DNA from: a virus | IMG/VR virus record: IMGVR_UViG_3300009593_000125 | Location: 1 to 23,579 of that record | DNA length: 23,579 nucleotides | Direction: 5' to 3' (one strand) | Part shown: positions 4,099 through 19,848 of the stretch, piece after piece | Layout: each line of letters begins with the position of its first letter | How positions within the stretch are numbered: position 1 is the first letter of the stretch | Notes under the pieces: generated by a model | The model's input: only the letters and a program-made list of their open reading frames with translations | Told to the model about the DNA's origin: nothing | Databases searched by the model: none | Program-made: the position numbers and the translations under genes

Positions 4099-6459
4099 AT
4101 GTTAGATCAACTTTTATACAACAAGAATTTTGTAGGAAGAGATGGATTCTATTGGTGGATCGGTCAGATTCCTAATGAAGAAGTTTGGAAAGAAAATATT
4201 TCTGGTTTTCCTGCAAAAGAAAACACAGAATCTAAGGGATTTGGTGAGAGATATAAAGTTCGTATCATGGGTTCTAATTTAGACTCATGGAATAGTGATG
4301 CATCAACAGAAGATCCTGATATCCCAGATAAAGATTTACCATGGGCAATTGTAATGTATCCTGTGACTGCAGGTGGTGGTCCTGGTGCATCTTATCAGTC
4401 TGCCAACTTGACACAGGGAACATATGTATTTGGTTTCTATCTTGATGGTGAGGATGGACAACAACCTATTATTATGGGAACACTTGGTTACAATGATTTC
4501 AACCAAGTTAGTGCAAATTCTCCCACATTCTTTCCCACAACTGGATTCACACAAAATGATAGAGAGTTTATTCCACCTTTAGCACTAAGAGAAGTACTTG
4601 ATGGAAACATATTTGCAGAGAATTATGAGTACCTTGCATTTAATACAGCTACCTTATGGACTGAGTCTGTAAATGGTGACAACACCATGTTTGACTGGGG
4701 TTCTGGTCAAGCAGCAAGAGATGGTAAAGGGAAAGTAGCTCTTCCACCTTCACCTGACTGTAAGTCTCCTTTGAGTGCAATGCAGTTACAGTTGAAGAAT
4801 ACGATTCAAGAGGTTGAAAAAGCAAAAAAATCTGTATATGATTTTAGATTAAATCTCAATAAAGATATTGCAAAGTCACAAGAATGGATTGATGCTAAAA
4901 TTATAGAGGGTGCCAAGATAGTTGCAGGTGCTATCAAGTGGTTGTTTACTGAGATTGAAAAGTTTGTCATTGCACAAGTTAATAATGCAGCGAAGAAGAC
5001 TTATAATTTATTGATGCCCAATGAACAACCCCTAATGAAGGAGGGAATGGAAACTGCTAGTGATATTATTGCATGTCTTTTTAAAAAGATCATAGACAAA
5101 CTCTTTGATATAGCTCTTGGTTTCCTTAAGGGAATGGTTGATAGAGTTGTTAATACGGCAGAGTGTCTTGTTAATAATTTTTTAGGTGGATTACTTGGTC
5201 AACTTGCTGGTCTTATTGATGGGGCTGTTGGTCAAGCATTTGGTTCAATTCAATCTATTATTAATGGTGTCGGTGGTATTGCTGACAGTGCCCTTGGACT
5301 TGCAAGTGATGGTCTTAAAATTATTTTAGATGTTCTCTCATTCTTGAATTGTGAAGAAAAACCAGAGTGTTCTAGTATTGATGAGTGGAGTATATGGGAT
5401 GGTGCAAATGGTGGATTAACTGGTAATTTTGATAGTTTGATTGATAATATCACTAATACTGCTGGTGCAATTACAAATGCTATAGATATTGATAATTTTG
5501 ATTTCAACTTAGACTTTAATTCTCAGTTTGATCCTTCTTCTTGTAATACTGGACCGAGAGTTTGTGGTCCACCAACTCTTGATATCTTTGGGTCGGGTGT
5601 AGGTGCAGCAGTTAATTTAGTTGTAGGTAACACTGGAGAAATTCTTGCAGCTGATATTGTTAATTCGGGTTATGGATACGTCGTAGGAAGTACATATACA
5701 AAAGTTACGGATGATTGTGGTGTAGGACAAGGTGGTATAGTTTATCCTGAATTTGGTCCAGTTACAGATCCCAATGGTAATCCTAGTATTGGTATCACAG
5801 GTGTTGTGATAACTGCAACAGGTAAAGATTATCTACCATCTCCCAACGGTTCTACTGGTGGTGATGGTAGAGTTTGGGCAAATCCAGAAGATACTAATGT
5901 CACAAATGATGATGGGACTATTAGAGTTCCTATTCCACCAGAGAATCCTATTGGTGTAAGTCCTGGAGATGAAGTTACTACTCCACCAGGAACTGAAACG
6001 GAAACTGATAATGGTCAAAAAATTATTGGTGGAATACCAACAGTTATTGTAAATGAAGGTGTACTCACAACTCCCCCTCTTACTATTGTCAAACCTCTTC
6101 CTGAATATCCAACATTAGAAATTGGTTCTTATCCAGTTATTCTTTACCTTTGTGATGTGATTATTGAAAGTCCGGGTATTAATTATAAAGAAAGTGATGA
6201 AGTTGTTATTGAACCATCAATGGGAGCAACTGTAGAATTTAAACTTGGTGACTTTGGAAAGATTGTAGGAGTTAAAGTTACTAATGGTGGTGAAGGATTT
6301 ACTGAAATGCCTAAGATCACAGTTAAGTCTCAATCGGGATTCAATAGTATATTAATTCCAAAATTCTGTATAGATAGGATAGGTGAGAATGATTTAGAAA
6401 GAGATCCTGATTATCAAGATAAGATCATTTCTGTTATAGATTGTGTAGGTAAGTTTTAA
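4099..6459 (+). CDS. gp5: Baseplate hub/needle base protein, gp5-like, without lysozyme domain
   Basis: 786 aa. Residues 1-140 match the gp5 N-terminal OB-fold: FYWWIGQIPNEE, YKVRIMG, DLPWAIVMYPVTAGGGPG, then GTYVFGFYLDGEDGQQPIIMGTLG, parallel to T4 gp5's LPWMSVIQPIT and GTRVYGHFLD blocks. T4 gp5 has its lysozyme after this fold. Here residues ~215-450 are instead long amphipathic or hydrophobic helices with no lysozyme motif. Residues ~505-600 and ~665-760 carry a repeated G-x-G-Y/F beta module (VNSGYGYVVG, VTNGGEGF). No C-terminal needle beta-helix is visible; the next gene may supply it. The gene abuts gp27-like (stop TAA directly before ATG) and overlaps the next gene by TAATG. The gp5 OB-fold call is strong; the helical insert is unexplained. 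Confidence 0.8.
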   Translation: MLDQLLYNKNFVGRDGFYWWIGQIPNEEVWKENISGFPAKENTESKGFGERYKVRIMGSNLDSWNSDASTEDPDIPDKDLPWAIVMYPVTAGGGPGASYQSANLTQGTYVFGFYLDGEDGQQPIIMGTLGYNDFNQVSANSPTFFPTTGFTQNDREFIPPLALREVLDGNIFAENYEYLAFNTATLWTESVNGDNTMFDWGSGQAARDGKGKVALPPSPDCKSPLSAMQLQLKNTIQEVEKAKKSVYDFRLNLNKDIAKSQEWIDAKIIEGAKIVAGAIKWLFTEIEKFVIAQVNNAAKKTYNLLMPNEQPLMKEGMETASDIIACLFKKIIDKLFDIALGFLKGMVDRVVNTAECLVNNFLGGLLGQLAGLIDGAVGQAFGSIQSIINGVGGIADSALGLASDGLKIILDVLSFLNCEEKPECSSIDEWSIWDGANGGLTGNFDSLIDNITNTAGAITNAIDIDNFDFNLDFNSQFDPSSCNTGPRVCGPPTLDIFGSGVGAAVNLVVGNTGEILAADIVNSGYGYVVGSTYTKVTDDCGVGQGGIVYPEFGPVTDPNGNPSIGITGVVITATGKDYLPSPNGSTGGDGRVWANPEDTNVTNDDGTIRVPIPPENPIGVSPGDEVTTPPGTETETDNGQKIIGGIPTVIVNEGVLTTPPLTIVKPLPEYPTLEIGSYPVILYLCDVIIESPGINYKESDEVVIEPSMGATVEFKLGDFGKIVGVKVTNGGEGFTEMPKITVKSQSGFNSILIPKFCIDRIGENDLERDPDYQDKIISVIDCVGKF

Positions 6460-7040
6460 TGGCACAAATTAAAGATTATCATGTTATTAGATATGGTAAT
6501 AAACATGGAGAACTAAAATTTGGACACATCTGGCCAGATAATAATCAGTCTGCTGTCCTTCTAAGAAGTGGTAGGAATGATGACCATTACATCACTTTAG
6601 AACAAAAAGGTGGACCACATAGAAAAAATGGTACAATATGTAGATCACCTGGTGCATTTCAGGTAAAAGCTGGTGATCAGTGTACTGAAAAAGATGAACC
6701 TGGTGTATTCATCGATGCTGTAAGTGGAGACATTAAACTTAATGCACCTAAAGGTAATGTCGAAATCAGAGCCAGAAACATAAGAATTTATGCTACGGCT
6801 GATGGTAATGATAATGGTACTATTGAAATGCAAGCCAATGAAAAGATCATTGGTAAAGCACAAAGTATTGATATCAACTCAAAGGTTTCTACAAAAATCT
6901 TCTCTGAGAAGTCTGTCGAAGTTATTGGTAAATCTGTGTTAAATATATATGGTGGAATGATTGACTGTGCTGATGGTCCCACAGAAGTTAATGGATCAAA
7001 AGGAGTACCATCAACTAACGAAATTAAAAACAGAGCATAA
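6459..7040 (+). CDS. Beta-helical needle/spike-like baseplate protein
   Basis: 193 aa. Residues ~1-85 form a compact domain (DYHVIRYGNKHGELKFGHIW, RSGRNDDHYITLEQKGGPHR). Residues ~85-175 consist of short alternating strands, VFIDAVSGDIKLNAPKGNVEIRA and so on to KSVEVIGKSVLNIYGG. This is the pattern of an intertwined triple beta-helix like the C-terminal needle of T4 gp5 or VgrG. Because the preceding gp5-like protein lacks such a needle, this product may form it as a separate chain, or may be another spike-associated protein. It overlaps gp5-like by TAATG and the next gene by TAATG. Fold and role are inferred from the residue pattern and position. Confidence 0.6.
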   Translation: MAQIKDYHVIRYGNKHGELKFGHIWPDNNQSAVLLRSGRNDDHYITLEQKGGPHRKNGTICRSPGAFQVKAGDQCTEKDEPGVFIDAVSGDIKLNAPKGNVEIRARNIRIYATADGNDNGTIEMQANEKIIGKAQSIDINSKVSTKIFSEKSVEVIGKSVLNIYGGMIDCADGPTEVNGSKGVPSTNEIKNRA

Positions 7041-7738
7041 TGAAAGTACCTGATTTATTTGTAGGAAAAAGATTTTTTCTTGGTTTAGGAAACCCTGAAC
7101 TTCTTGGGCGTGGACCTTTGGAGGTTCGTGGTTCGGGGTATGTTGAGGGTCCTACTATTAATGGTGATCCCAATGGTCAATTTGATCCAATCACTGCTGT
7201 TGCAGATGGATTACCTGTAGGACCCACTAATGGTACTGCCAATGTGATGATTGGTCAGAATAAGAATATTGAGATGAAACCCATCCCATTCTATGCTCTG
7301 ATGGTGAAAACTTTTGCAAGGATCAAGAGTTTCTTAAAGGTTGATACTCTTTTGACTGTTAGGACAATTAAATCAAAGATTATCTACACTGAAGTTCTTC
7401 TTGCAAGATCAAAGAACTTTATGATACCTCATCCAGACGATCCTAATAAACAGCTTGTTTATGCTTGTCTGGAAGGACCAGAACATTCTGTGTATGTAAG
7501 AGGTCAGTTGAGGAATAAAGATACTATTATTTTACCAGAGGTTTGGAGAAACCTTGTAGATGAAAGATCTATTACTGTTTCATTAACTCCAGTTGGAACT
7601 CACCAGGAGTTAATTGTAAAGAGAATTCAAGATAATCAGATTGTAGTAGGAACAAAACCAGGACTACCTATCAATTGTTATTATCATATATTTGCAGAAA
7701 GAAAGGACATTCCTAAATTAGTGACGGAGGTTGAGTGA
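7040..7738 (+). CDS. Virion structural protein with shared C-terminal fibre domain (paralog A)
   Basis: 232 aa. Residues ~1-120 contain Gly-rich short-strand sequence (NPELLGRGPLEVRGSGYVEG, then MIGQNKNIEMKPIPF), as in the shaft of a trimeric fibre. Residues ~125-230 form a compact domain: KNFMIPHPDDP, LVYACLEGPEHSVYVRG, LPEVWRNLVDE, ITVSLTPVGTHQELIV, INCYYHIFAERKDI. The next gene repeats this domain almost block for block. I recognise the pattern from tail-fibre proteins of marine T4-like phages but know no assigned function; a trimerisation, chaperone-like or fibre-base domain is plausible. TAATG overlap with the gene before, TGATG overlap with the gene after. Confidence 0.7.
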   Translation: MKVPDLFVGKRFFLGLGNPELLGRGPLEVRGSGYVEGPTINGDPNGQFDPITAVADGLPVGPTNGTANVMIGQNKNIEMKPIPFYALMVKTFARIKSFLKVDTLLTVRTIKSKIIYTEVLLARSKNFMIPHPDDPNKQLVYACLEGPEHSVYVRGQLRNKDTIILPEVWRNLVDERSITVSLTPVGTHQELIVKRIQDNQIVVGTKPGLPINCYYHIFAERKDIPKLVTEVE

Positions 7739-8580
7739 TGCCTGGACCATTTCAGTTAAGAAATTATGCAACATTTACTGGACCTCTTCAGAAAGATGAA
7801 TTAGCATACAGTTATGACCTTTCTGAAGTAGAAGGTGTTTGGCATACTGACATTCCTGTTGATACATCATTTCCAAACTTTGATGTAGGAGTTCTTTTCT
7901 TTAGAGATCCGACTGATTATACACACTTTCATTTATATGGTCCTGCACCACAAATTGTTGTTCTTGAAAAACAAGCATATCAACCACTTCCAGGTTTATT
8001 TTTAGAAGTTCTGAATACTGTTGTAAACGGAAACATTATTGCGAATGGTAGTATTGTTTGTAATGATAATGTTATATGTAATGGGGTTACCCTCATGAAT
8101 GGTGTTATCAACATGAAGTCCGTAGCACTTCTTTCTGGTATTGGTAATGTTAAAACATACATGACTACAACAAGAGCAATTGCACAATCCAAAAAGTCAT
8201 TTGATATTCCACACCCAACCAAAGAAGAACATAGACTGAGATATGTTTGTGTTGAGACACCAAAGGCAGATGTATATGTTAGGGGTAAATTGAATGGTAG
8301 TAATGTAATTGATCTTCCAGATTATTGGAAAGACTTGGTTGACCCTGACAGTATTGATGTTGTCCTCACACCTAGAGGATCCTTCCAAGAACTCTTTGTA
8401 GAAGATATTCAGTGGGGAACTAAGGTTATTGTCAAGAACAATGCTGGTGGTTCCATTAACTGTAGTTACGTTGTTTATGGTGAGAGAAAGGATGTAAGTC
8501 CTAACATTCCTGAGTATCAGGGGTTGACAGAAGCAGATTATCCAGGAGATAATAGTGAATATATCGTTAACTCTGATTAA
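7738..8580 (+). CDS. Virion structural protein with shared C-terminal fibre domain (paralog B)
   Basis: 280 aa from ATG 7738. This start is preferred over GTG 7735 because GGAGG at 7726-7730 is 7 nt upstream of the ATG and the ATG overlaps the previous stop (TGATG). Residues ~95-140 are a run of short N/G-turn strands (VVNGNIIANGSIVCNDNVIC), the look of a beta-helical shaft. Residues ~150-260 repeat paralog A's domain: KSFDIPHPTKEEH, YVCVETPKADVYVRG, LPDYWKDLVDPDSIDVVLTP, QELFVEDI, INCSYVVYGERKDV. The N-terminal ~60 residues differ from paralog A. The protein probably sits in the baseplate or fibre with paralog A; function is not established. The acidic tail (TEADYPGDNSEY) is specific to this copy. 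Confidence 0.7.
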   Translation: MPGPFQLRNYATFTGPLQKDELAYSYDLSEVEGVWHTDIPVDTSFPNFDVGVLFFRDPTDYTHFHLYGPAPQIVVLEKQAYQPLPGLFLEVLNTVVNGNIIANGSIVCNDNVICNGVTLMNGVINMKSVALLSGIGNVKTYMTTTRAIAQSKKSFDIPHPTKEEHRLRYVCVETPKADVYVRGKLNGSNVIDLPDYWKDLVDPDSIDVVLTPRGSFQELFVEDIQWGTKVIVKNNAGGSINCSYVVYGERKDVSPNIPEYQGLTEADYPGDNSEYIVNSD

Positions 8581-17840: not shown

Positions 17841-18248
17841 ATGATACCTGTCTCTCTTAGACATTTCAGAACACCAAATACTAACTTATACTTGAATGGT
17901 CCGATTCTACAAATCGTTGGTGAACCTTCAAGTATGACTGTTGGTATTGCTTCGACTGTTATTTTTAGTGGTTTTGCCACAGCAACATTTGAACAGAATC
18001 CAACGGCTATTTTGGATGGTGAGGTAACTTATAGATGGTATCTTTCGGACGATTCTACACCACCAGAACTTACATTATTACCAGAAGGAACAAAGTATGT
18101 TGGTACAGCAACTTCTCAATTAACTATTAATGATGCATCAGCAGGTGATAATCAAAAGAAATTTCTTTTTGAACCAGGTTATATACCAAGTGCTGAACTT
18201 GATGGTTATCTGAACGATCCGACTTCGGGGAATGCAACAGATGAGTAG
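17841..18248 (+). CDS. Fibre protein with incomplete Ig-like domain (upstream half of a split gene)
   Basis: 135 aa. It starts MIPVSLRHFRTPNTNLYLNG, then from ~30 reads as an Ig-like domain: PSSMTVGIASTVIFSGFATA, VTYRWYLSDD (the central Trp strand) and TATSQLTINDASAGDNQKKF. It stops at GNATDE, just where the last (G) strand of the Ig fold is due. That strand (RSVEVLLTVLP) is encoded at the beginning of the next ORF in the +1 frame. The two ORFs therefore look like one fibre protein, joined by frameshifting, broken by a mutation, or made as two coupled chains. AAGGAG lies 11 nt before the ATG. Expected location is the virion surface. Confidence 0.55.
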   Translation: MIPVSLRHFRTPNTNLYLNGPILQIVGEPSSMTVGIASTVIFSGFATATFEQNPTAILDGEVTYRWYLSDDSTPPELTLLPEGTKYVGTATSQLTINDASAGDNQKKFLFEPGYIPSAELDGYLNDPTSGNATDE

Positions 18249-19848
18249 TATTCGGTCAGTTGAAGTACTTCTTACAGTACTTCCAGTTGTTACAATTACC
18301 TCTCAACCAGAAAGTATAAGAACTGCAATAGGTGTTGAGACATCATTTATTGTAGAAGCATCTATTACAGACACTAGATATACCATCCAATACTATTGGA
18401 CAATTGATGATGTAATACAAAATAATTCAAATTCTAGAATTTTTACTGTTTCAGGATCTGAGATAGGTGAAAAAAAGGTAAGAGCATATGCATATATTGA
18501 CGTTACTTCAGAAAATGAGGGTAAAACTGTTACTAATAGATCAATTAATTCTTCTGATGAAGTAACCTGGAATATTGGTCCACCAAGAAGTATTATTAGA
18601 TTTGAAGGATTTACACCAACAGGTGGATATAAGTATGTTGATGCCAACCTTGATGACGGTGATTTTACTCTTGATAACTCCATTTTTGATAGTACTTACA
18701 ATATCGTAACTTATTACGCAAGAGAAAAGGATCTTCAACTTACTCTCCATATGGATGGAGCACCTGGTAAGGCAGATGATCCTAATTCCCCACAAACTCC
18801 TGGAGAAGGTGGAAGATCCTTAGTTACACTTGATCATACACAAAATATTGAACATACGGTCTTAGGAACTACCAACAACTCTGCAGTATTTCTTTATAGA
18901 GGATCAAATTTATTATTGGTTGCAGGACAAGGTGGTTCTGGTGGTTCAGGATACTACGGCGGTGATGGTGGTGGTGTTAATGTTGCTGGTGCTAATGGTC
19001 ATAATAATGTTGCTGATGGTGGTCAATTAATCTCTATAGGTAGTTTAAACTTAAATGGTGAGTTTGGATCTAATTTAACCAATGTAACCCTACAATCAGG
19101 AGATACGTTAGCAAACCCACCCTTCGGCGGAAGAACTATTTCTTGTTCCAAGGGTTCTTATTGGACTGGATTGGGTATATCACCTTGTGAGGATAATTCT
19201 ACCAGTCAAATTAAATTCCGAATTGCAGATGGAACGGAAGTTATTTTAAGTGATAATATTATCAGAGGATTTAAACCAGGATATACAATCACTAGTACAG
19301 AAGGTAGAGCTGAAAATACAACAACTGGTGTAGGTGGTAGAGGTGCAACTGGTGGATGGGGTGCAACAGTTACTGGTTATGGAGGTGGAGGAGGATCAGG
19401 TTATAGTGATGGTACTGCAACAATTTTTACTACTCAACTTGGTGGAGTTCCTATAGGTGAGACTGCAAAAATTAAATTTAGTCTTGTACCACCACCACCA
19501 CAAACTAAGACCGGAACAGTTACTCATGGATTTAATAATAGTACTAATACGGATATATTCTTGAGTTTTGATGGTGCTATCGTAAATTGTGAACCACAAA
19601 ACCGTGGTGCAGCAAATAGACAGGGAGGTACGGGGTATCATCTTAAGTATTATATCCTTACTATGAATAGTAATTATACCAATCTTTCTGTTGAGTTACT
19701 TCAAGATGCAACTGCTGGTGGTGGTCCTGGTATGGGTCTACGGCCAACTAAGATTGAAAAGACTGATAATTATAGATGGAGTATTTGGTTCAATAAAGCA
19801 ATTGGATATAATAGCTTTGCTAGAAATTGGTCAGTAACGGGAAGTTAA
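18241..19848 (+). CDS. Ig-like and glycine-rich adhesin/fibre protein (downstream half of a split gene)
   Basis: 535 aa from ATG 18241. I prefer this start over 18232 because GGGGA (18227-18231) is 9 nt upstream and ATGAGTAG overlaps the previous stop. Residues 3-14 supply the missing last strand of the upstream Ig domain; residues ~15-110 form another Ig-like domain (SQPESIRTAIGVETSFIVEA, then YYWTIDD). A glycine-rich region at ~190-400 (GGSGGSGYYGGDGGGVNVAG, GGWGATVTGYGGGGGSGY) resembles polyglycine-sandwich tips of phage adhesins. The C-terminal ~130 residues contain PPPPQTKTGTVTHGF and YILTMNSNYTNLSV. The likely role is host recognition. It has no own late box in front, in keeping with coupling to the upstream ORF. 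Confidence 0.65.
   Translation: MSSIRSVEVLLTVLPVVTITSQPESIRTAIGVETSFIVEASITDTRYTIQYYWTIDDVIQNNSNSRIFTVSGSEIGEKKVRAYAYIDVTSENEGKTVTNRSINSSDEVTWNIGPPRSIIRFEGFTPTGGYKYVDANLDDGDFTLDNSIFDSTYNIVTYYAREKDLQLTLHMDGAPGKADDPNSPQTPGEGGRSLVTLDHTQNIEHTVLGTTNNSAVFLYRGSNLLLVAGQGGSGGSGYYGGDGGGVNVAGANGHNNVADGGQLISIGSLNLNGEFGSNLTNVTLQSGDTLANPPFGGRTISCSKGSYWTGLGISPCEDNSTSQIKFRIADGTEVILSDNIIRGFKPGYTITSTEGRAENTTTGVGGRGATGGWGATVTGYGGGGGSGYSDGTATIFTTQLGGVPIGETAKIKFSLVPPPPQTKTGTVTHGFNNSTNTDIFLSFDGAIVNCEPQNRGAANRQGGTGYHLKYYILTMNSNYTNLSVELLQDATAGGGPGMGLRPTKIEKTDNYRWSIWFNKAIGYNSFARNWSVTGS
18262..18283 (+). other. Stem-loop just downstream of the split-gene junction
   Basis: GAAGTACT (18262-18269) pairs perfectly with AGTACTTC (18276-18283) around a TCTTAC hexaloop. 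The stem begins 13 nt after the TAG of the upstream ORF. With GGGGA at 18227-18231 before the junction, the layout is reminiscent of recoding sites that use an upstream SD-like sequence and a downstream hairpin. It could also be chance structure in a repetitive coding region. Confidence 0.4.

Follow-up and report, generated by a model that had tools for sequence, protein, structure and literature searches.

A tail-fibre gene of T4-like marine phages divided inside an Ig-like domain and kept as two overlapping, putatively coupled genes

In a 23.6 kb IMG/VR fragment of a T4-like marine phage (37% GC; the whole stretch is referred to below as the window), which carries its baseplate and tail-fibre region, a fibre gene is divided into two overlapping ORFs inside an Ig-like domain, and the division is conserved among close relatives. 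The annotated relatives of the window are mostly Kyanoviridae cyanophages. The explanation that we favour, with a probability of about two in three, is that the ORFs are coupled genes, the second being translated by re-initiation at the overlap, and that the two chains complete one Ig fold in trans. A single event that changed the reading frame, in the F-G loop of the first Ig domain, would have divided an ancestral tail-fibre/adhesin gene of the phrog_24848 family of T4-like marine cyanophages, and the two halves would since have persisted as translationally coupled genes. The features concerned are listed in Table 1. A sequence-only reading of the window had described the two ORFs, the GNATDE-TAG end of ORF1, the +1 frame of ORF2, the GGGGA and the 8-bp stem, all of which hold; it had offered three options for the junction, of which coupled re-initiation is now best supported, recoding is unlikely and a recent frameshift or error is excluded.

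Table 1. Features of the divided fibre gene and its junction (window coordinates)
Feature	Position	Strand	Remarks
ORF1, 135 aa	17841..18248	+	N-terminal conserved segment (MIPVSLRHFRTPNTNLYLNGP) and Ig-like domain 1, strands A-F
ORF2, 535 aa	18241..19848	+	Strand G of Ig domain 1, Ig domain 2, glycine-rich fibre region, C-terminal domain
Start/stop overlap ATGAGTAG	18241..18248	+	ORF2 start codon over ORF1 stop codon; spacing -8 nt, 8 nt shared
GGGGA, Shine-Dalgarno-like site for ORF2	18227..18231	+	Duplex -5.7 kcal/mol, 9 nt 5' of ATG 18241
Codons for VLLTVL, ORF2 residues 9-14	18265..18282	+	Modelled as strand G of the ORF1 Ig domain (AlphaFold2)
8-bp stem-loop, stem GAAGTACT/AGTACTTC	18262..18283	+	Judged a chance feature

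Both ORFs match the phrog_24848 profile, ORF1 at positions 4-125 (E 6e-17) and ORF2 at positions 453-787 of 799 (E 2e-73), and between them they cover N- and C-terminal parts of it. A single continuous ORF, which is the usual form of this family and lies outside the profile itself, is found in the other relatives and is replaced by a split gene in the window and ten relatives. Homologues of ORF1 are present in 11 contigs, and scans of IMG/VR identified the same split in ten contigs besides the window. Four of these (L020-L023) have an ORF2 73-90% identical to that of the window and the same -8 overlap, although L020-L022 appear near-identical to one another and hence are not fully independent; the remaining six (L024-L029) have an ORF2 56-66% identical and an ATGA overlap (-4). 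A single ORF runs through the junction in about 45 other relatives, as well as in the isolates P-TIM68, S-SM2 and Bellamy; a few fragments among the 45 stop short of the junction site, and every other checked relative spanning it has one ORF across it. Thus the protein is continuous in distant relatives and split in close ones, which answers the comparison proposed in the sequence-only reading; relatives all carrying two self-contained proteins, which would have spoken against a divided fold, were not found. In a maximum-likelihood tree of the shared region all split members fall on one branch (100/100 support), nested among fused relatives under a midpoint root, and one gene fission is therefore the simplest history of the split. 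L090 was set aside as a chance match and not a relative.

Some other features of these fibre genes were also seen. In L004 (3968-7402; SynMITS9220M01 genes 28-30) the homologue seems interrupted: gene 28 enters a long proline/arginine run and unrelated sequence, and the fibre protein is taken up again in gene 30, which could reflect an insertion or an assembly fault. Close to its C-terminus the unsplit L050 protein (4566-7328) apparently contains a tandem pair of Hint/intein-like segments, with a match to Pfam PT-HINT (3e-7) and, on a different stretch, a weak match to Hint; this is unusual for a tail fibre. The C-terminal domain of ORF2 (residues about 405-535, about 19453-19845) is found in L040 and L053 and is missing from most unsplit relatives, a distribution that makes it look like a mobile module of the fibre tip.

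Purifying selection acts on ORF1 and ORF2 alike, as judged from the substitution patterns. Comparison between the subclades gave dN/dS values of 0.29-0.39 (ORF1) and 0.29-0.30 (ORF2), and the L024/L029 comparison within the second subclade gave 0.25 and 0.55, respectively. Constraint on ORF1 is not uniform, because the window and its closest relative, L020, differ there by clustered substitutions, almost all of them nonsynonymous (dN 0.118, dS 0.060, dN/dS about 2); this suggests that the first Ig domain is under diversifying selection or is locally mosaic. The synonymous divergence of ORF2 from L023 is near zero at about codons 35-160 and high beyond, and the abrupt change between the two suggests that recombination has occurred within the fibre gene.

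The position of the break can be seen by alignment with unsplit relatives. The continuous protein of L036 reads ...TSGNATNSPLDSNAVSLTVWPSLSITTQP..., and the window reads ...TSGNATDE-stop followed by MSSIRSVEVLLTVLPVVTITSQP, so that the break lies in the F-G loop of Ig domain 1, the length of which varies. ORF1 thus ends without the last strand of this domain, and the VLLTVL of ORF2, whose N-terminus reads MSSIRSVEVLLTVLP..., aligns with SNAVSLTVWP of the unsplit relatives. The AlphaFold2 predictions agree with the alignment. The read-through sequence, for which a 22-row alignment was used and the +1 step was bridged by one four-letter word, was modelled at a mean pLDDT of 86, with VLLTVL placed as strand G at 142-147 (pLDDT about 95) and the F-G loop at the junction poorly defined; this model gives the position that strand G would take and does not show binding in trans. 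ORF1 together with the N-terminus of ORF2 is accordingly predicted to form an Ig-like (I-set) two-sheet fold that includes strand G, and ORF2 residues 9-14 are predicted to sit as the G strand of the ORF1 domain. In Ig folds the A' strand pairs with strand G. When ORF1 was modelled alone the mean pLDDT was 72, the A' strand was lost, and the tail (120-135) was disordered, with no substitute strand and an open edge; most ORF1 strands were still modelled, and the drop in confidence is only moderate. In Foldseek searches the read-through model hit tandem Ig structures (E 1e-8) and cyanophage relatives; below 1e-3 there were 639 matches for this model and 0 for ORF1 alone, a difference that is weak evidence since the read-through model holds two domains. 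The earlier claim that the cut falls just before the last Ig strand is thus backed by both the alignment and the structure prediction.

The putative translational coupling of ORF1 and ORF2 is well supported by comparison of the junction among relatives. The ORF2 start overlaps the ORF1 stop in 11/11 split contigs, with a spacing of -8 in the window and L020-L023 and of -4 in L024-L029, and in all of them it lies within the limit of 10 nt used as a coupling criterion (PMC3711429). Start/stop proximity is taken as the mark of translational coupling (PMC3711429), and both spacings are among those enriched in overlaps, although overlaps larger than -4 lower the efficiency of coupling in some studies (PMC12548453). 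It should be noted that an ATG with -8, -4 or -1 spacing accompanies 22% of all + strand stop triplets of the window; we therefore attach no significance to the overlap by itself, and it is its conservation in 11 contigs that counts. Half of the gene junctions in the window have a spacing of -8 to 0 or close to this, so coupling would be ordinary in this operon. Elsewhere in the window a GTGA start/stop overlap joins a tandem pair of adjoining paralogous genes, 7040-7738 and 7735-8580 (39% identity over 134 aa, E 6e-30). The Shine-Dalgarno-like motif is GGGGA or AGGGA in the split relatives, with GGGA kept throughout. Its strength is middling, as 20% of the other ATGs in the window have sites of -5 kcal/mol or stronger. 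The site gains support from codon choice: of the 58 all-Gly columns of the split relatives, the one at this site alone has GGG throughout; GGG is used by 0/18 of the fused relatives that have Gly at this position, and makes up 4.9% of the Gly codons in the window. Other starts for ORF2 were considered and rejected: the in-frame ATG at 18232 has a poor Shine-Dalgarno match (-1.1), and in L024-L029 there is no in-frame ATG, GTG or TTG 5' to the overlapping ATG.

From these features we infer that ribosomes ending ORF1 would re-initiate at the overlapping ORF2 AUG, aided by the GGGGA, and would thereby produce the two chains in linked amounts. The first strand of ORF2, VLLTVLP, may then insert as strand G into the open Ig domain of ORF1 and so complete the fold in trans. 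The N-terminus of ORF1 is common to nearly all unsplit relatives and may anchor the fibre; ORF1 would in this way hold ORF2, with its second Ig domain, glycine-rich and C-terminal parts. Coupled genes need not encode chains that interact, and the products could instead stay apart, ORF1 working in truncated form and the N-terminal strand of ORF2 being a leftover. The persistence of most strands in the model of ORF1 alone is consistent with this, yet we consider it doubtful: the supposed leftover, LTVLP, is identical in 11/11 split contigs while adjacent residues vary, and the ORF1 model retains the unfilled edge and disordered C-terminus described above. Without such a joint ORF2 would moreover lack the near-universal N-terminal segment, which ORF1 carries, and so be cut off from any structure to which that segment attaches. 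Complementation in trans, by which two separately translated, coupled chains would restore one Ig domain of a virion fibre through strand G and form a non-covalent joint between fibre base and adhesin tip, appears to us fairly probable.

A long ORF1-ORF2 fusion made by programmed ribosomal frameshifting, besides a short ORF1, is an unlikely explanation of the junction. Ig-like domains are often added to phage proteins by frameshifting, in a direction that can vary from phage to phage (PMC5009743, a review); a gene pair may be both recoded and coupled (PMC3711429), and the unsplit relatives show that a fused form exists. A programmed frameshift should occur at a constant site and in a constant direction, but ORF2 lies in the +1 frame in the subclade of the window and in the -1 frame in the sister subclade (L024-L029), a difference caused by a net 5-nt difference in length around the junction. 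Direction alone is not decisive, because phage Ig extensions elsewhere use both; here, however, it changes inside one close clade. As the sequence-only reading had noted, no slippery heptamer was seen in the ORF1/ORF2 overlap. The stem-loop to which it had drawn attention is present, but unremarkable: it is one of 114 inverted repeats in the window (at least 8 nt, within 30 nt), its stem is mismatched in the closest relatives and missing from the sister subclade, and it was rejected as a recoding signal. Frameshifting is thus made improbable by the differing direction, the lack of a slippery site and a stem-loop that is not conserved, and under it the precise start codon with its Shine-Dalgarno-like site would serve no purpose. 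Although unsplit relatives exist, a sequencing or assembly error or a recent inactivating indel is scarcely credible, as the split is shared by ten other contigs in two different junction forms with both ORFs open and under purifying selection; the split is real and inherited.

The protein family, phage Ig domains and coupled overlaps are all already known. In the literature searched, coverage of which was incomplete, we found no description of a split Ig fibre gene, nor of a phage fibre in which an Ig fold is stably divided, with the junction in two forms and continuous relatives alongside. The phrog_24848 proteins of P-TIM68 (AIR93406), S-SM2 (SSM2_031) and Bellamy (gp28) occupy the same position after the long tail-fibre gene and share with the window the N-terminus, both Ig domains and the glycine-rich region, but each is one continuous gene rather than two overlapping ones, so that split and unsplit relatives are at hand for direct comparison. 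Hoc, the highly immunogenic outer capsid protein of T4-like phages, also has tandem Ig-like domains and is the best PDB sequence match (E 2e-17); it is a capsid decoration made as a continuous chain, unlike the split fibre of the window. As in other coupled overlapping pairs (NTGA, -4; -8), there is a conserved start/stop overlap with a Shine-Dalgarno-like site; the present pair, however, stems from a fission within one domain and not between separate proteins. A published filter rests on the assumption that two genes cannot share one conserved domain between them (PMC3711429), and the gene pair of the window appears to be an exception. In the frameshifted Ig-like extensions of phages (Fraser et al. 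2006; SPP1 gp17.1*), a virion Ig-like domain likewise involves a change of frame, but a whole Ig domain is appended by recoding, whereas here the cut is inside the fold and there is no conserved recoding signal. If our interpretation is correct, frame breaks in phage Ig proteins do not always indicate recoding, and translational coupling can preserve a virion Ig domain whose fold has been interrupted. In chaperone-usher pili, the following subunit donates its N-terminal strand to an Ig-like fold that lacks strand G and thereby completes it (donor-strand complementation). The proposed joint would resemble this in the way it works, with no homology, chaperone or polymer implied, and would represent a natural, evolutionarily stable counterpart, in a phage fibre, of laboratory split-protein systems.
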